Assembly: GCA_002084545.1 (NCBI GenBank)
Contig: NBLJ01000002.1
Span: 1-64,000 of the forward strand
From: Desulfobacteraceae bacterium 4572_123
GTDB lineage: Bacteria > Desulfobacterota > Desulfobacteria > Desulfobacterales > 4572-123
Reading direction: 5' to 3'
DNA: 64,000 nt
Shown: piece by piece, positions 8,734-27,394 of the stretch
Layout: each line of letters starts with the position of its first letter
How positions within the stretch are numbered: position 1 is the first letter of the stretch
The notes under the pieces: model-generated
Told to the model about the DNA's origin: nothing
Databases searched by the model: none
Seen by the model: only the letters and a program-made list of their open reading frames with translations
Made by a program: the position numbers and the translations under genes

Positions 8734-9468
8734 CTATTCAACCTGTTTTACAAGCTGGGCATCGATTTTTTTCATTGCATCCATGAATTTGCGCCGATTT
8801 TGGCGGGCGTATGGATTATATCTGTTCATATCAAGAAAAAGCTGCCAGGTATCGTGCTCGACTACTCCCAGAATGTGCAGCAGCCGCTTGTAACCCTCAG
8901 TATCTATATCCAGAGGACAGGCACCGAATTCTTCAAGCCCCCGGCCGATAAAATGGGTAAGGGCAAGACTGACTGCAATCTGGCTATCATGTTTTTCCGG
9001 TGTTCCCTCAATCAGAATCAATCCCAGAGAGTGCAGATAATTTTTTACCTTTTCATATCCGGCCTTATCAATTCTGGTATTATTTAGAAAAATTTTGCAC
9101 CCCTGTAGAGACTTGGATGCGCTGTCCGGACCGAACATGGGGTGAGTGGCCAAAATAGAGACGGTTTCAGGCAGCAGGGATTCCATCCAACGTATGGGTG
9201 CCTCCTTTACCGAACACACATCCACGACGATCGCATTTTTATTGATAATCGGTGCGATATCCATTAACACATTTTTTAAAGTCGAAATAGGGACACAAAG
9301 AATAATGTATTTCTGAGCGCAAACCTTTTCCAGGGAGGCCGGAATTCCGCCAAGTGTCTTGACCGCAGATGAGTTGCCCTTCCGGTTTGCTACGTTCACT
9401 TTAAAATCCCGGGCCAGATATCTGGTCGTCAAACGGCCGAAACGCCCAAAACCTATAATGCCGATCAT
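8734..9468 (-). CDS. tyrA: prephenate/arogenate dehydrogenase
   Basis: 244 aa, a short TyrA. The N-terminal NAD(P) fold has IIGFGRFGRLT; then ILCVPISTL, VVDVCSVKEAP, and the TyrA-typical ATHPMFGPDSASKSLQG block. It oxidatively decarboxylates prephenate or arogenate toward tyrosine. There is no chorismate mutase or ACT domain. AGAGG is 4 nt before the ATG. It is the last gene of the aro operon, about 130 bp after aroC, with a tandem palindromic repeat in the gap. Its place in an operon led by a Tyr-rich leader peptide fits tyrosine-controlled expression. Confidence 0.88.
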   Translation of the reverse strand: MIGIIGFGRFGRLTTRYLARDFKVNVANRKGNSSAVKTLGGIPASLEKVCAQKYIILCVPISTLKNVLMDIAPIINKNAIVVDVCSVKEAPIRWMESLLPETVSILATHPMFGPDSASKSLQGCKIFLNNTRIDKAGYEKVKNYLHSLGLILIEGTPEKHDSQIAVSLALTHFIGRGLEEFGACPLDIDTEGYKRLLHILGVVEHDTWQLFLDMNRYNPYARQNRRKFMDAMKKIDAQLVKQVE

Positions 9469-9599: not shown

Positions 9600-10676
9600 T
9601 TAATTTTTCACAATCTGACATAGCGCCAGGTCTGCAAGAACAAGGGCGGTCATGGCTTCCACAATCGGTACGGCTCTTGGAACCACGCAGGGATCATGAC
9701 GTCCCTTTGCATTCAGGATTGCATCATTGCCGTCATAATCCACCGTGTTTTGGGCTTTGCCGATGGTTGCCGGCGGCTTGAAAGCCACTTTGAATAAAAT
9801 CGGCTCACCATTTGTAATTCCTCCCTGAATACCTCCGCTGAAATTAGTACGGGTACCCAGATGATCGTCCCTTTTTATAAACAGATCATTATGCGTTGAA
9901 CCCTGCATGGCAGCGCCTGCAAATCCGGAACCGATCTCAAAGCCCTTGGACGCGGGAATGGATAGCATGGCCTGGGCCAACCGGGCTTCGGTTTTGTCAA
10001 AAACCGGTTCCCCGAGTCCGGCCGGCATATTTTTACAGATACAGGTAATAATGCCGCCGATTGAATCCGAATCTTCACGTGCCCTCATAATCTGTTTTTT
10101 TATCTGCCTTGCAGTTTCCGGGTCAGGACATCGGGTTGATGTTTTTTCAACCTGTCTTCGGGAAACATCGTGCCCCATTTCCGGGGCAGTTGCACTACCT
10201 GCGGCACTTACCCATGCCACGATCCTGATGCCATGGGTTTCAAATAAAAATTTTTCGGCAATGGCACCTGCCGCCACCCTGGCGGCGGTTTCCCGGGCAC
10301 TGGCCCGCCCTCCCCCGCTGGCGGCGTTAATGCCGTACTTCATCCGGTATGTATAATCCGCATGGGAAGGCCGCGGGATATCGAGAGTATTACCATAATC
10401 AACCGGGCGGTGATCCCTGTTGTCAATCAGCAGGGCAATGGGGGTGCCCAGGGTCTGTCCGTTTTCCACACCCGACAATATACGAACAAGGTCCTTTTCG
10501 TTTCTGCCGGTTGTCAGATCGCTCTGCCCCGGACGCCGGCGATCCAGTTGAATCTGAATATCGGACTCATTCAGACGGATACGAGGTGGACATCCGTCGA
10601 TCACGGCGCCAATGCTTTTTCCATGGCTTTCACCAAAAGTGGTTACCTTAAATAAGATTCCGGTTGTGCTTGACAT
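9600..10676 (-). CDS. aroC: chorismate synthase
   Basis: About 358 aa from ATG 10676 ([19 protein letters not shown]), a normal length. An upstream in-frame Met would add 19 residues that overlap aroK, so it was rejected; AAAGG precedes the chosen start. Signature blocks seen: [42 protein letters not shown] and GGITNG. The enzyme converts EPSP to chorismate and needs reduced FMN. It lies between aroK (13 nt upstream) and tyrA. Confidence 0.95.
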
Positions 10677-10689
10677 TATATCCAGCCTT

Positions 10690-11214
10690 TCATTTTTGAG
10701 AAATTTTTTCAATAATAAGGTTACATATTTCATCTATTGATCTTGAATCGGTGTCAATTGTTAAATTAGCTGCTTCTGTATAATATTGTTTTCTATTTTT
10801 AATAGTTATTTCGATCTCTTCAAGTAAACCTTTAGATGTAAGAGAGGGCCGCTGGTTCTTTGTATTCAGATCTTGGACCATCCTTTTCCGGGTGGTTTCA
10901 GCATCGGCGCGCAACCATACAAGAATACCGTTTTTTTTCATTTCCGCAACATTGGCAGCATCCAGGACAACCCCTCCTCCTGTAGCTACAACCTGAGATT
11001 TTTCCATGCATATCTGTTTTATGATCTGCTTTTCCAATTTGCGAAAATATTGCCAGCCCCGATCTTCCACTATTTCGGCAATGGATTCATCGAAAGTTTC
11101 GACTATCATGCAATCACTGTCAAGAAAGCTCTTTTTCATCCGTTGAGCCAGTTTCCGTCCAACAGTAGTTTTACCGCTGCATCGAAACCCTATTAAAAAA
11201 ATATTCATTTCCAC
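10690..11214 (-). CDS. aroK: shikimate kinase
   Basis: 174 aa. P-loop [11 protein letters not shown] at the N-terminus, shikimate-binding DSD and GGGVVLD ([11 protein letters not shown]), and a lid-like KNQRPSL region. It phosphorylates shikimate at the 3-OH with ATP. The frame starts at GTG 11214; an ATG two codons later (11208) is equally possible. It is the third gene of the aro operon, separated from aroA by a hairpin-containing 51-bp gap. Confidence 0.93.
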
Positions 11215-11265: not shown

Positions 11266-12534
11266 TTATACTTCAATTCCCATTTGGTTGAAAACATTCC
11301 AGAATTGGGGGAAAGATTTTTCAACACACCTTTCATTGCAAATAAAAATACCTGGAATATTTAATCCTGCCAGTGCAAAACTCATGGCAATCCGGTGATC
11401 ATCATAGGTTTTAATTTTTGCGCCATGGGGTATCCCGCCATGAATCTCCATTCCATCATCACGGCAAAGAGCCTTGATTCCCATTTTTTCAAGTTCGTTA
11501 ACCACCGCACCAATGCGATCACTCTCCTTGACCCTTAAATGAGCTACATTGCGGATTCGCGTTGTGCCTTTTGCAAAAGCTGCAACTACCGCCAGTGTCG
11601 GAACCAGATCGGGCATGTCTCCCATATCAACATCAACGCCTGCAAGCAGGGGCGGGCCGACAACCTTTATACCGTCATTTCTTTTAATTACCGAACAGCC
11701 CATTTTTTCCAGCAGTTCCACAAATCTTATGTCACCCTGGCGGGAATCGGCATTAATTCCACGGACGGTGACAGATGCACCGGTTATGGCCGCAGCGGCC
11801 CAGAAATAACCCGCCTGGGAGCAATCCGGTTCAACAGCATACCGGCCGGCTCGAAATACCTGGCCGCCCTTAACGGCAAATAAGTCGTACCCGCTGCGCT
11901 GCACTTCAATCCCCATTCGCTGCATGACGTCCACAGTCATGTCAATATAAGGCTTTGAAACCGGGCCATTTGTAACTTTGATTTCAATACCCCGTATTGT
12001 GTAAGGAGCGATCAGCAGCAACGCGGAAAGATACTGACTGCTGGTGCCGCAGTTCAACTCAATTTTTCCGCCGGTCACACGCATTCCGGTAACTTTGACC
12101 GGGGGACAGCCATTTTGGTTGACCGATATTGCGTTGACCTCGATCTGATGCAATCCATCCAGCAGATCCTGCAATGGCCTCTCATGCATCCTCTTGGTGC
12201 CGGACAGGAGATATTCACCTTGCCCGATGGCTGCCAAGGCAGTAATCAAGCGCATGGATGTTCCGGAATTTCCCAGAAACAACGGCGCACGGCAGCTTTC
12301 CAGACATCCGTTGGTACCGGATACGACAAACCGATCCTGCAGGTTCTCGATTTGCGTTCCCATCTTTTTCAATGCATTCAGAGTCAGGAGAGTGTCGTCA
12401 CTGACAAGACCGTTTTCTATGGTACTGATACCGTCTGCCAGGGCGGCGGCAACCAGAATCCTGTGTGTATAACTTTTAGATCCGGGTACTATTGCCGCAT
12501 ATCTTTCAATTTTTTTCGGTTTAATTTCAATCAT
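11266..12534 (-). CDS. aroA: 3-phosphoshikimate 1-carboxyvinyltransferase (EPSP synthase)
   Basis: 422 aa from ATG 12534 (MIEIKPKKIERYAAIVPGSK), preceded by AGAGGTTACC. The open frame extends 43 residues upstream into aroE but has no family similarity there. Signatures: PGSKSYTHR (PEP/S3P binding), LFLGNSGTSMR, LNCGTSSQYLSALLL, HLRVKESDRI and DDHRIAMSFALAG. It transfers enolpyruvyl from PEP to shikimate 3-phosphate. The LGNSGTSMR loop has Gly-Asn-Ser-Gly-Thr rather than the common GNAGTA, which resembles class II-type variants. It starts 22 nt after the aroE stop. Confidence 0.94.
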   Translation of the reverse strand: MIEIKPKKIERYAAIVPGSKSYTHRILVAAALADGISTIENGLVSDDTLLTLNALKKMGTQIENLQDRFVVSGTNGCLESCRAPLFLGNSGTSMRLITALAAIGQGEYLLSGTKRMHERPLQDLLDGLHQIEVNAISVNQNGCPPVKVTGMRVTGGKIELNCGTSSQYLSALLLIAPYTIRGIEIKVTNGPVSKPYIDMTVDVMQRMGIEVQRSGYDLFAVKGGQVFRAGRYAVEPDCSQAGYFWAAAAITGASVTVRGINADSRQGDIRFVELLEKMGCSVIKRNDGIKVVGPPLLAGVDVDMGDMPDLVPTLAVVAAFAKGTTRIRNVAHLRVKESDRIGAVVNELEKMGIKALCRDDGMEIHGGIPHGAKIKTYDDHRIAMSFALAGLNIPGIFICNERCVEKSFPQFWNVFNQMGIEV

Positions 12535-12556: not shown

Positions 12557-13372
12557 TTAATCAATAGCCGACCGGCGGTGTTTTTGTAATGCCCCGCGAA
12601 CGATCCGAGCCATAACATCAAGGGGTGCTTTTTGGCCGGTCCACAGTTCAAACTGCCGGGCACCCTGATTTACAAACATGGAAACACCGTCTATTGTGGT
12701 ACAGCCCTTTTTTCCGGCCTCAATAAGCAGACGGGTATTCAATGGATTGTAAACAATGTCCATGATAACCATATTTTTTTCAAACCAGGTGGCTTTTACC
12801 GGCATGGCTTCTGTGTTCGGTGCCATACCCACGGAAGTTGTATTGATCATTATTTCCCATTGCGGTTTTCGATATTCAGCAACGGGTATAAATTCCCCTC
12901 CCAGATCGGCCGCAAGTTTCTCACCTCTTTTATGTGTGCGATTGGCAATCGTAAGCTTGCCGCCTTCTGAATTAATGCCGAAACCAATGGCACGGGCCGC
13001 TCCGCCTGCTCCTATTATAAGTATTTTTTTTCCGGCTATCGAAGTTTTCTCCTTCAGAGCATTCATTGCTCCGATCCAGTCGGAGTTAAATCCTTTTAAA
13101 AATCCGCCCCTGTTAAGTACTGTATTTACGGCACCGATTCGCAAGGCCATCTCATCGATTTCATCCAGATATTTCATGATTTCAATCTTATGGGGAATGG
13201 TGATACTGGCCCCTCTGACACCCAGAGCCCTGATACCAGTCACGGCCCCCCGGATGTTTTTTACGTTCATTGCGACATAAATACCGTTATAACCGGTTTC
13301 GGCAAAGGCCCGGTTATGCATGACGGGACTCAGGCTGTGTGCCACGGGATCACCGATTACGCCAAAAAGCAA
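12557..13372 (-). CDS. aroE: shikimate dehydrogenase
   Basis: 271 aa from TTG 13372 (LLFGVIGDPVAHSLSP). Substrate site SLSPVMHN, catalytic Lys in ITIPHK, NADP loop GAGGAARA with following NRT, and GVSMFVNQGARQFELWTG at the C-terminus. It reduces 3-dehydroshikimate to shikimate. It is the first structural gene of the operon. The start is odd: a perfect AAGGAGG (13396-13402) lies 23 nt before the TTG but exactly 8 nt before an in-frame ATC at 13385-13387, so translation may begin at ATC (five extra residues), or a former ATG was mutated. The attenuator-like leader lies directly upstream. Confidence 0.93.
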   Translation of the reverse strand: MLFGVIGDPVAHSLSPVMHNRAFAETGYNGIYVAMNVKNIRGAVTGIRALGVRGASITIPHKIEIMKYLDEIDEMALRIGAVNTVLNRGGFLKGFNSDWIGAMNALKEKTSIAGKKILIIGAGGAARAIGFGINSEGGKLTIANRTHKRGEKLAADLGGEFIPVAEYRKPQWEIMINTTSVGMAPNTEAMPVKATWFEKNMVIMDIVYNPLNTRLLIEAGKKGCTTIDGVSMFVNQGARQFELWTGQKAPLDVMARIVRGALQKHRRSAID

Positions 13373-13433
13373 AGTATCTGAATCGATTTTGTCTGCCTCC
13401 TTTTTAATACCCCTGTTCCTGTTAAGCAGACGG

Positions 13434-13465
13434 CACGATAAAAGCCGCGGCAGCTTTTATCGTGT
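13434..13465 (-). promoter_or_regulatory. second leader hairpin before aroE
   Basis: Arms 13434-13443 and 13456-13465 (CACGATAAAA / TTTTATCGTG) pair perfectly; the inner part holds GCCGCGGC, which is complementary to the GCCGCGG cores of the terminator arms. It lies between the terminator hairpin and the aroE Shine-Dalgarno, so it may take part in alternative folding or affect mRNA stability. Confidence 0.55.
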
Positions 13466-13476
13466 CCCGCCTTTTG

Positions 13477-13519
13477 TTAAATAAAAAAGCCGCGGGCTTT
13501 TGGTCTGCCCGCGGCTTTT
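13477..13519 (-). terminator. intrinsic terminator of the aro leader (attenuator)
   Basis: On the minus strand the 13-nt arms AAAAGCCGCGGGC (13519-13507) and GCCCGCGGCTTTT (13498-13486) form a perfect GC-rich stem with an 8-nt loop, immediately followed by TTTTTTATTT. It lies 27 nt after the leader-peptide stop and about 110 nt before aroE, which is the place expected of an attenuator terminator. Confidence 0.85.
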
Positions 13520-13546
13520 GGTGTATTTGAATAAGTTAAAGCTTCC

Positions 13547-13627
13547 TCAACGCACCCCGGCCGGGCCGGTGCCATAATAATAGTACCGGCAGTAACCAAA
13601 ATAGAAGTTAAATTTATTGGATGTCAT
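13547..13627 (-). CDS. Tyr/Phe-rich leader peptide of the aro operon (attenuator peptide)
   Basis: ATG at 13627-13625, stop TGA at 13549-13547, 26 codons. It starts MTSNKFNFYFGYCR and continues with four consecutive Tyr codons; in all 9 of 26 residues are aromatic (6 Tyr, 3 Phe) and none is Trp. Its last codons form a GC-rich hairpin (13552-13573), and it is followed by a strong intrinsic terminator. This is the classical layout of ribosome-mediated attenuation: stalling at Tyr/Phe codons when charged tRNA is scarce would favour read-through into aroE-aroA-aroK-aroC-tyrA. A GCCCG segment in the peptide's end can pair with CGGGC of the terminator's 5' arm as a possible antiterminator. The Shine-Dalgarno is weak. 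A TATAAT on the minus strand lies at 13666-13661. Confidence 0.8.
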   Translation of the reverse strand: MTSNKFNFYFGYCRYYYYGTGPAGVR

Positions 13628-13814: not shown

Positions 13815-13881
13815 TCGCGTGTCTGGGATAGTTCCCGCCGGCAACCTGTTCAAGCTAACGATTATCCGACAGAGAGGTTGT

Positions 13882-15834
13882 GTGAAAAAAATAAAAACGT
13901 TTGTATTGAATAATTTTGAAATGATCGCCATTGCAGTCATTCTGGCAACTTTCTTTTTTTTCAATTACCACATTCGCACTCAAACCACCTTTTTATATTT
14001 TTATTTTTTACCGGTTATGATGGCCGGCTATTTTCTGGGACCTCGCAGCACTATTACGATATCCCTTTTATGTGTAGCAGTAGTTGTTTTATACAGCATC
14101 TGGTCACCCGGCCTTGATACGATAGTTAACAGCAGAATGAATTTTTATCTGCATATCATGATATGGGCCGGGTTCCTGATTCTTGCAGGTTTTGCCATCA
14201 GCAAAACCGGTCATTTCAAACAACAGCTCCTGCTGCACCGAAAAAAGCTGGCCCGGGCCGACAACATAATAGGAGATTACAAAAAAAAATTCGACGATAA
14301 ACTCAAAAAACGCACCGAAGAGCTTGAAAAATCAAGCCAATCCATTAAATCGCTGAAACTCAAGTTAGAAAAAACACTCTATTCGACCATGGATGCCGAA
14401 GTAGCAAAACTGTTAATCGACGGTCGCCTGCGCAATGAAAAACGTAAAATAAGTGTCATGTTTTCCGATCTTGTCGGTTTTACCGGTTATTCGGAGGATC
14501 GCAGCCCCGAAATTGTTGTCCAGGATCTAAACAACTATTTAAGCTGTATGGAACCGGTCATGCTTGATTATCACGCACACATCGACAAATATCTCGGGGA
14601 TGGCATCATGTGCGAATTCGGAGCCCCCCTGGATTATGAAAACTACAAACTGCTTGCCGTTATGGCGGCAATCAAAATGCAGGAAAAACTCATCCGCCTT
14701 GATTTTCCCTGGCAAATGCGCATCGGCATTGCATCCGGCCCCGTGATCATGGGGATCATCGGCTCCCGTCGTCAGGCCTACACGACCATTGGCGATGTGG
14801 TCAACCTGGCCTCGCGTATTGAAAAAACATGTTCCCCGGGATCGGTTTTGATTGATGAGTTTACCCGCCAAGGCGTTGACCGCTTTATTGATGTCCGCCT
14901 TAAAAAGGATATATCTCAGTTTGAAAATCTTGATGAAAAAGTTGAGGCCCGCCTTGATGAAATGCACCGCAAACTTAATCTCGCCACAAACGCGGATGCG
15001 CGGGCAGATCTCTTCCATGAAATCGGCCGACTGCACATGTCTTTAAACGAGCCTCACGATGCCATGCATTATTTTGAACAGGCACTGCTCATGAGGCCGG
15101 AAAACATAGAACTTAAAGTAGCTTTTGCCGAAGCCACCATAAAACGGGATGAAACCGACAGAATCAAGGTCAGGGGGCGAAAAAAACGAATAGGCGCATA
15201 TGAGGTGATCGGCATCAAGGATGTCCTGCTGGATCATGAAAAATTCCCAGCCTCCTTTCTGGGCAGGTATCCCCATGTGGAAGAACTTATTGAAATGCCG
15301 CTGGACATCATCATGCCGGTGGAGGCTCTGGATGGATGTATCGGGCATTCCAAGGTTGTCGCTCTGCTCTCCTATGCTGTTGCAACCGAACTGGGAATAT
15401 CCGAAAAAGAAAAAAAAGAGATTCTAAACAGCGGTTTTGTAGCGGATATCGGGAAAAAACACATCCCCCATCATCTTCTCAATCGTATGGGCAGTCTTAA
15501 CTCTGATCAGATTAAAATAGTGCAGGGGCACTCCACCGAAGGCGTCAAAATACTTGAAGATCTGGGCTATACTTCGAAACTGATGCTGAAAATCATACGC
15601 CACAGTCATGAGAACTATAATGGTTCCGGATATCCGGATGGACTGCGGAAAGATGATATACCGCTGGGATCAAGAATTATTGCGGTGGTAGACACATATG
15701 ATGCATTGTCATCATGGCGTCCTTACCGCGAGAAATGGGACCGGCATGCGACACTGGAAGAATTGCTGAAATGCGTGGACAAAGGACTTTTTGATCCCAG
15801 AGTTGTAAATGCCCTTGTCAAGGTAATGGAGTGA
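13882..15834 (+). CDS. membrane-anchored class III cyclase with TPR and degenerate HD-GYP domain
   Basis: 650 aa from GTG 13882 (AGAGAGG 4 nt upstream); a longer frame begins at 13819. About four N-terminal membrane helices (residues ~13-106), a coiled coil (~115-168), then a cyclase domain with D196 and D240 (KYLGDG) and N308/R312 (DVVNLASRIE). A short TPR-like stretch (FHEIGRLHMSLNEPHDAMHYFEQALLM region) follows, then an HD-GYP-type domain. The latter keeps NGSGYPDG and VVDTYDAL, but the HD dyad reads ADIGK and the HHE motif reads SHE, so metal binding and c-di-GMP phosphodiesterase activity are probably lost. It may instead bind a nucleotide as a sensor. Confidence 0.8.
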   Translation: MKKIKTFVLNNFEMIAIAVILATFFFFNYHIRTQTTFLYFYFLPVMMAGYFLGPRSTITISLLCVAVVVLYSIWSPGLDTIVNSRMNFYLHIMIWAGFLILAGFAISKTGHFKQQLLLHRKKLARADNIIGDYKKKFDDKLKKRTEELEKSSQSIKSLKLKLEKTLYSTMDAEVAKLLIDGRLRNEKRKISVMFSDLVGFTGYSEDRSPEIVVQDLNNYLSCMEPVMLDYHAHIDKYLGDGIMCEFGAPLDYENYKLLAVMAAIKMQEKLIRLDFPWQMRIGIASGPVIMGIIGSRRQAYTTIGDVVNLASRIEKTCSPGSVLIDEFTRQGVDRFIDVRLKKDISQFENLDEKVEARLDEMHRKLNLATNADARADLFHEIGRLHMSLNEPHDAMHYFEQALLMRPENIELKVAFAEATIKRDETDRIKVRGRKKRIGAYEVIGIKDVLLDHEKFPASFLGRYPHVEELIEMPLDIIMPVEALDGCIGHSKVVALLSYAVATELGISEKEKKEILNSGFVADIGKKHIPHHLLNRMGSLNSDQIKIVQGHSTEGVKILEDLGYTSKLMLKIIRHSHENYNGSGYPDGLRKDDIPLGSRIIAVVDTYDALSSWRPYREKWDRHATLEELLKCVDKGLFDPRVVNALVKVME

Positions 15835-26085: not shown

Positions 26086-27394
26086 AAAGTAGGCCGCATA
26101 CCCTGCCCTGCTCTGAAACGGATTCAATCCTTACATTTACAATGCTCTCCTTGAGATAATCCTCTCCTTGAAGCAGAATTGGGATATAGTTGTGGGTCGT
26201 GCCTTTTAAATGGCCCGTATCCCTGTCCCTTTTGCCCTCAATAAGAACTTTTGATATTTTTCCAATATTTTTTTTATAAAACAGTTTTTTTTTGGCAATG
26301 CCAAGTTCGCGCATTCGGCGGCATCGAGTTTTGACGACATCATGTTCTACCTGATCCGGAAATCCTGCCGCGGGCGTTCCCGATCTGGAGGAAAATGGAA
26401 ATACATGCAGGTACGTTACCGGCATTTCATTGATTAAATTATATGTATTTTCAAAAGCATCATCGGTTTCGCCGGGAAATCCAACCAGTATATCAGCACC
26501 TATTGCAGCATCCGGAAGCAAACCATGTATCTTTTGCACGAGTTCCTTGAAAAAAGCGCCGCTGTAGGGACGATGCATTCTTTGTAAAATGCTGTCATCT
26601 CCGCTTTGCAGAGGAATATGAAAATGATGGCAAAAGACCCCGGAAGAGGCCACCAGACAGATCATTTCCTCAGTGATCTCGTGGGGCTCGATGGAACTGA
26701 GCCGTACACGATCCATGGGCCTTGTTTCGTGAATTTGTCTCAGCATTTCAACCAGAGAGCTCGGGGGTGCAAAATCAAGTCCGTAATATCCCAGATGAAT
26801 GCCGGTCAACACGACTTCCTTAAATCCAGCGGTTTGCAGAGTATTTATATTATGCAGCACTTCGCCGGCAGGCATGCTGCGGCTTCGTCCCCGGGCATAG
26901 GGAACAATGCAGTATGTGCAAAAATTATTACAACCGTCCTGAATCTTGAGAAATGCCCTTGTTCTGCCGCCCCTGCCGGGGCAGGGGAAATTGGCGAATT
27001 TTTTTTCACCGGCAATATCATGACAAATCGTGACCGGATGCGAATTTTTATGTTCTGCAATTTTTGAAAGCATGGATGGAATTTTGTGCTTATCCGAGTG
27101 CCCGATGACATAATCGACGCCGGTGATTTTTTCCAGTTCCGACGGTTCGGTCTGGGCATAGCATCCGGTTACGATAATACACGCTTCGGGGTTTTTTCTT
27201 ACAGCCTTTCGGATGGCCTGCCTGGATTGCATGGAGGCCTTTTGAGTAACGGTACAGGTATTGATAATGCAAAGATCTGTACAAGTTTCATCGGCATTTG
27301 AATGCCACCCGGATTTTCTCAAATATTGTGACAATCCATCGGACTCATATTGATTGACCTTGCAGCCCAGCGTCATGACTTTAAATTTTTTCAT
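26075..27394 (-). CDS. mtaB: tRNA t6A37 methylthiotransferase
   Basis: 439 aa. Begins MKKFKVMTLGCKVNQYES, the MtaB hallmark. UPF0004 domain cysteines C11, C47 and C78, the radical SAM CNNFCTYC cluster, and a C-terminal TRAM domain (KVLIEGKRDRDTG region). It adds a methylthio group to t6A37 of tRNAs reading ANN codons, using two [4Fe-4S] clusters. It is the third gene of a run with NIL-ferredoxin and mnmA (47-bp gap to mnmA), suggesting a tRNA-sulfuration operon. Confidence 0.94.
   Translation of the reverse strand: MKKFKVMTLGCKVNQYESDGLSQYLRKSGWHSNADETCTDLCIINTCTVTQKASMQSRQAIRKAVRKNPEACIIVTGCYAQTEPSELEKITGVDYVIGHSDKHKIPSMLSKIAEHKNSHPVTICHDIAGEKKFANFPCPGRGGRTRAFLKIQDGCNNFCTYCIVPYARGRSRSMPAGEVLHNINTLQTAGFKEVVLTGIHLGYYGLDFAPPSSLVEMLRQIHETRPMDRVRLSSIEPHEITEEMICLVASSGVFCHHFHIPLQSGDDSILQRMHRPYSGAFFKELVQKIHGLLPDAAIGADILVGFPGETDDAFENTYNLINEMPVTYLHVFPFSSRSGTPAAGFPDQVEHDVVKTRCRRMRELGIAKKKLFYKKNIGKISKVLIEGKRDRDTGHLKGTTHNYIPILLQGEDYLKESIVNVRIESVSEQGRVCGLLFKG

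Follow-up and report, generated by a model that had tools for sequence, protein, structure and literature searches.

What controls transcription of the aroE-aroA-aroK-aroC-tyrA operon in the 64,000-nucleotide stretch of DNA analyzed here (the window)? A sequence-only reading had proposed that a leader peptide with Tyr and Phe codons and a terminator ahead of aroE form an attenuator set by the levels of the charged tRNAs. Among aromatic genes, attenuators are chiefly known for Trp and Phe and from a few bacterial groups. The features on which the question turns are the following:

13547–13627, minus strand: leader ORF, MTSNKFNFYFGYCRYYYYGTGPAGVR plus stop, with 6 Tyr and 3 Phe codons; homologous leaders in relatives
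13574–13585, minus strand: four consecutive Tyr codons, TAC TAT TAT TAT (codons 15–18), from the sequence and modelled ribosome positions
13565–13590, minus strand: hairpin 1:2, GCCGGU...ACCGGC, −13.7 kcal/mol, spanning the Tyr codons
13553–13566, minus strand: segment 2, predicted antiterminator 5′ arm within the last leader codons, from family-wide covariation and the window fold
13507–13523, minus strand: segment 3, predicted antiterminator 3′ arm, CACC...GCCGCGGGC, overlapping the terminator 5′ arm
13519–13485 (to 13483 with the U tail), minus strand: intrinsic terminator hairpin 3:4, AAAAGCCGCGGGC-AGACCAAAA-GCCCGCGGCUUUU, 13-bp stem, −24.3 kcal/mol
13434–13464, minus strand: second hairpin, a perfect 14 bp with no U-run, between the terminator and aroE
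13396–13400, minus strand: Shine-Dalgarno sequence GGAGG of aroE, from the sequence
12557–13387, minus strand: aroE, shikimate dehydrogenase (Pfam); probable AUC start at 13387, with TTG at 13372 as the first canonical start listed
11266–12534, minus strand: aroA, EPSP synthase (Pfam); start predicted from the N-terminus MIEIKPKKIERY
10690–11214, minus strand: aroK, shikimate kinase (Pfam)
9600–10676, minus strand: aroC, chorismate synthase (Pfam); predicted start
8734–9468, minus strand: tyrA, prephenate dehydrogenase (Pfam)

The leader ORF has 26 codons and ends in a TGA stop (13549–13547, minus strand). The six Tyr codons (four of them running) and three Phe codons attributed to it match the sequence to the base. 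Phe and Tyr take up 9 of the 26 codons, the enrichment in end-product codons expected of an attenuator, and none of the codons is for Trp. A first-order Markov model predicts 0.05 short ORFs this rich in Phe and Tyr (12–45 codons, with at least 8 Phe/Tyr within 14 codons) in 64 kb, and the window has two. The other one starts with TTG at position 26250 on the plus strand (LIFFQYFFYKTVFFWQCQVRAFGGIEF). The main stall codons of the leader would be the four Tyr codons at 13585–13574. The GC-rich hairpin that had been placed over the end of the ORF is present but sits over the Tyr run (13590–13565) and not strictly over the ORF end; it may act as a pause or protector hairpin. Upstream of the leader, the search for a sigma-70 promoter gave no good candidate, and a strong Shine-Dalgarno sequence is absent ahead of it. 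The gene upstream (13819–15834, a cyclase/HD protein) is divergent, which places the leader in the intergenic space between divergent units.

Pfam confirmed the gene calls of the operon: aroE, aroA (EPSP synthase), aroK, aroC and tyrA. The aroE gene seems to have no canonical start codon. Its GGAGG is followed 8 nt on by AUC (13387–13385), which aligns with the residue directly or nearly after the ATG in many relatives; this codon may be a rare AUC start, or the sequence may contain an error. The span covered by the sequence-only reading also took in the second hairpin (13464–13434), which went unmentioned there; a search of the genome bin with this 14-bp inverted repeat returned only its own reverse match.

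The terminator was found as described, with a 13-bp stem, a U-run (UU AUUU) and a first base exactly 27 nt past the leader stop. As in attenuators, it stands between the leader ORF and the first gene (13519–13483), and it covaries in relatives. Folding predicted a bulged antiterminator in the window (−20.8 kcal/mol) in which GGUG pairs with CACC and GCCCGGC with GCC..GGGC. Segment 2 of the window has drifted from the family sequence, and the antiterminator pairing there requires the bulge. The simple 2:3 duplex is no better than that of shuffled sequence (z = −0.3), which is the weakest point for the window copy. The region from 13610 to 13400 has a much more stable fold than its shuffled versions (z = −5.9). 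When the full-length RNA is folded to equilibrium, most copies, the window's among them, favor the terminator, so the attenuator model needs co-transcriptional kinetics, with the order of synthesis deciding between the helices. Classical attenuators likewise depend on co-transcriptional kinetics.

When the leader DNA was used to search the window's genome bin, two further copies came up, each before a DAHP synthase gene. Contig C63 carries such a gene with its own attenuator copy. The interpretation of the three bin copies as paralogues was rejected, as contig C14 (locus L005) is probably a contaminant. Its attenuator and DAHP synthase are identical to those of a contig from another family (G007:C58) and close to those of another genome of that family. 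Part of a second aroE, with 58% identity to the window aroE, is also present on contig C14. The bin is reported to be 88% complete and 7.5% contaminated.

A covariance model (R1) of the three bin copies, with only the terminator paired, was run on 58 genomes of the same order, each from a different family, and matched 51 of them, including 41 of the 45 good ones. A second model (R2), built from 50 copies, matched 150 of the order's 194 genomes and 110 of the 122 good ones (completeness of 90% or more, contamination of 5% or less). Matching loci include those of Desulfobacterales bacterium Zod_Metabat.1250, Desulfobacteraceae UBA2156 and S20.Bin143, Desulfobacula sp. S2_67, FCS_Desulfobacterota_01, deltaproteobacterium SG8_13 and Desulfobacterales CG23. 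Genomes of Desulfobulbus, Desulfoprunum, Desulfurivibrio and Desulfatifera were also tried and gave no match. Judging by these names, the order is probably Desulfobacterales. Across the phylum, matches at E ≤ 1e-4 were found in 66 of 345 genomes and included weaker copies before aroK-aroC. The latter come from other families of the phylum (L169, L177, L183 and L185), with tails such as GLPMD and GLPGD. The weak matches L139–L141 are probably false. The genomes searched include no other member of the window's family, so that even the nearest relatives compared belong to other families.

The aligned leaders consist of a Phe/Tyr run, often with one Trp, followed by a TGLPGVR-like tail. In the 50 aligned copies, 57% of the leader frame is aromatic over the 14 codons before segment 2, compared with 23% and 19% in the other frames; 48 of the 50 copies are aromatic-rich in frame. 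Among the 700 codons, TAT (156) and TTT (153) lead TAC (44), TGG (30) and TTC (16), and both synonymous codons are used in the aromatic run. The sequence-only reading had staked itself on the conservation of the Tyr and Phe codons in relatives. The aromatic run is conserved across the order, and non-conservation was not borne out. The alignment refines the reading, suggesting that the signal is Phe and Tyr, plus Trp in many relatives. We also identified loci in two relatives (L137, minus strand, near 2077–1917, and L142, 1442–1632) where a short WWW-containing leader and a terminator precede trpE and are half matched by the aromatic model. These leaders are probable Trp attenuators.

The RNA that encodes the tail has the consensus GGUCUGCC(U/C)GGGGUGCG and is complementary to the terminator 5′ arm and part of the loop (GCCGUGGGCAGACC). 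We tested this antiterminator on an alignment fitted to the terminator only, which is thus not biased towards it. Double changes occurred in 10 of its 13 pairs, and 90% of cells were paired, compared with at most 48% when slid. None of 500 shuffles was as good, although such shuffle figures are not probabilities because the sequences are related. The compensating pairs included UGUCU with GGACA, CUUCC with GGAAG and UGCUCAUGG with CCGUGAGCA. For the terminator, double changes were seen in 7 of 9 pairs and 95% of cells were paired. Segment 3 is common to both helices, so that antiterminator and terminator are mutually exclusive, as in an attenuator (in the window, with the bulged antiterminator). 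The two checks that had been proposed on the RNA, alternative folds and stem conservation, both came out in favor: the family has an antiterminator in the leader's last codons that excludes the terminator, and both stems covary.

These conserved elements bear on the possibility that the hairpin serves only as an intrinsic terminator, shielding aroE from transcription that comes from upstream, and that the aromatic ORF arose by chance. Such a role would suit the strength of the terminator and its dominance at equilibrium. Yet the upstream gene is divergent and no other minus-strand gene lies directly upstream, which leaves the terminator with no other obvious client. Furthermore, conservation and covariation of the aromatic run and antiterminator extend across the order, before the same pathway, and the order-wide conservation of the leader frame contradicts a chance ORF. 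We therefore consider plain insulation very unlikely.

We rate it as similarly improbable that Tyr, tRNA or chorismate is sensed directly, by a T-box, a riboswitch or an antiterminator that depends on a protein, with the ORF being secondary. Such systems are expected to have the terminator and antiterminator that we found, but the only extra structure beyond the terminator sits inside the ORF, and it is the aromatic codons that are conserved within the run. Nor did the locus match any Rfam T-box or riboswitch family. Indeed, no Rfam 15 family reached threshold here or in five other tested aromatic-leader loci, and Phe_leader, Trp_leader, T-box and riboswitch families gave no match at gathering score. 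Sub-threshold matches were rejected as chance. The trpB motif (RF04312) matched weakly at 13578–13478, with 25.6 bits against a gathering score of 59. This motif, known from Firmicutes and Fusobacteria, is similar in that it forms a two-hairpin leader with a terminator before some amino-acid genes (PMC11109978). A nascent-chain arrest peptide, stalled by its own sequence and not by uncharged tRNA, would account for the strikingly conserved C-terminal TGLPGVR tail but is extremely unlikely, since covariation of the tail-coding RNA with the terminator arm explains that conservation, some copies alter the tail yet keep the pairing (e.g., L103, L115, L126 and L127), and the residues of the aromatic run differ between copies (Phe, Tyr or Trp).

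Ribosome-mediated attenuation makes a further prediction about where a ribosome must stand to free segment 2. We modelled it in 50 copies by cutting the transcript before segment 4 and removing the RNA covered by the ribosome. With the A site 12 codons before the stop, the 2:3 pairing exceeded 0.5 in 47 of the 50 copies. The number fell to 43 at 10 codons, to 10 at 8 codons and to 0 of 50 at 6 codons or fewer. Cutting before segment 4 separated the states, whereas full-length equilibrium folding with a ribosome block separated them poorly. Counted in codons from the stop, the aromatic run spans roughly −9 to −18 (−12 to −9 for the window's four Tyr codons), and a ribosome stalled there would thus free the antiterminator. 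Stalling is thus predicted to free the antiterminator arm and finished translation to mask it, as expected of an attenuator.

We infer a promoter, actual translation of the leader, stalling and a regulatory response that would proceed as follows. RNA polymerase would transcribe the leader ORF with a ribosome following. When charged tRNA-Tyr and tRNA-Phe are plentiful, the ribosome would reach the end of the ORF and cover segment 2, allowing segments 3 and 4 to pair; the terminator would then form and transcription would end before aroE. When these charged tRNAs are scarce, the ribosome would stall on the Phe/Tyr codons and leave segment 2 free to pair with segment 3 once this is made. No terminator would form, and aroE-aroA-aroK-aroC-tyrA would be transcribed. 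The conserved aromatic run, the same-pathway context and the covarying terminator and antiterminator all support the attenuator reading. Hence, the locus is in all likelihood a ribosome-mediated transcription attenuator of the aromatic pathway.

The pathway context is as regular as the leader. The first downstream gene is aromatic in 53 of 57 matches, and the genes that follow the attenuators are nearly always those for ADTH synthase, DAHP synthase, pheA, aroE or trpE. None of the operons examined for gene content contained trpE. The usual arrangement in the order, by NCBIfam families, is attenuator-ADTH synthase-DHQ synthase II-pheA-aroE-aroA-aroK-aroC-tyrA. A variant has aroF-aroB in place of ADTH synthase-DHQ synthase II, and aroB is a later gene in L133. 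By comparison, the window operon appears to have lost the head genes and kept the second half only, so that the attenuator abuts aroE. The aroB and pheA matches of the bin are only on the presumed contaminant C14. The attenuator is thus ahead of an aroE operon in the window, as the sequence-only reading had it, but it is not specific to aroE, the usual first genes being those for ADTH synthase or DAHP synthase. A reading of non-conservation had come from a search of 40 relatives in which no aromatic leader turned up within 700 nt of aroE. It was rejected because the operons of these relatives do not start with aroE.

The mechanism itself is a classical one. The E. coli pheA, trp, his and multivalent ilvGMEDA attenuators likewise combine a leader rich in end-product codons, alternative antiterminator and terminator helices, a U-run and a biosynthetic operon (general knowledge and PMC1183508). 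Unlike them, the window's family would read Phe and Tyr together (Trp too in many relatives) before the common shikimate pathway, and its antiterminator 5′ arm lies within the last leader codons, so that finishing translation would mask the arm directly. A putative attenuator was listed in 2005 before the Desulfovibrio vulgaris aroA′-aroB′-pheA-aroF-tyrA-trp operon (Merino database, PMC1173090, Table 7). This bacterium is from a related group, formerly Deltaproteobacteria, and its operon also has ADTH synthase and DHQ synthase II at the head, but the table entry is a generic putative attenuator with no leader peptide or aromatic codons given. For E. coli aroF-tyrA, Tyr-tRNA-sensing attenuation of a DAHP synthase/tyrA operon was hypothesized (Camakaris, 1980, cited as 'Attenuator sensing tyr-tRNA' in PMC2659441); as cited there, the proposal is alike by description only and concerns other bacteria and another operon. 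The uORFC-13-1 motif before aroF is also alike by description only, having a short ORF with at least one Phe residue and a terminator before a DAHP synthase gene; its 24 copies are from Acholeplasma and unassigned environmental sequences only (PMC8632094). A 2005 survey reported attenuators for phenylalanine genes but assigned the RNA control of tyrosine genes to T-boxes rather than attenuators (PMC1262725). We found no experimental account of aromatic pathway regulation in these sulfate-reducer relatives in the open PMC literature. Within that literature, the order-wide Phe/Tyr-reading family is apparently undescribed, although an earlier description is possible.

It is fairly likely that control of the aromatic pathway across a whole order of Desulfobacterota lies with one RNA family not yet described. 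A single type reading Phe, Tyr and Trp would stand before whichever operon carries the pathway (ADTHS-DHQS2, aroF-aroB, pheA or aroE and, elsewhere in the phylum, aroK-aroC) and stay there through rearrangement. The leader tail would itself be the antiterminator arm, so completion of translation, and not a separate protector hairpin, would be the off signal. The data strongly support an order-wide attenuator that reads Phe and Tyr, and often Trp, at the common shikimate pathway of these sulfate-reducer relatives, and the covariance model, leader consensus and pairing map now make the control of the pathway directly testable.
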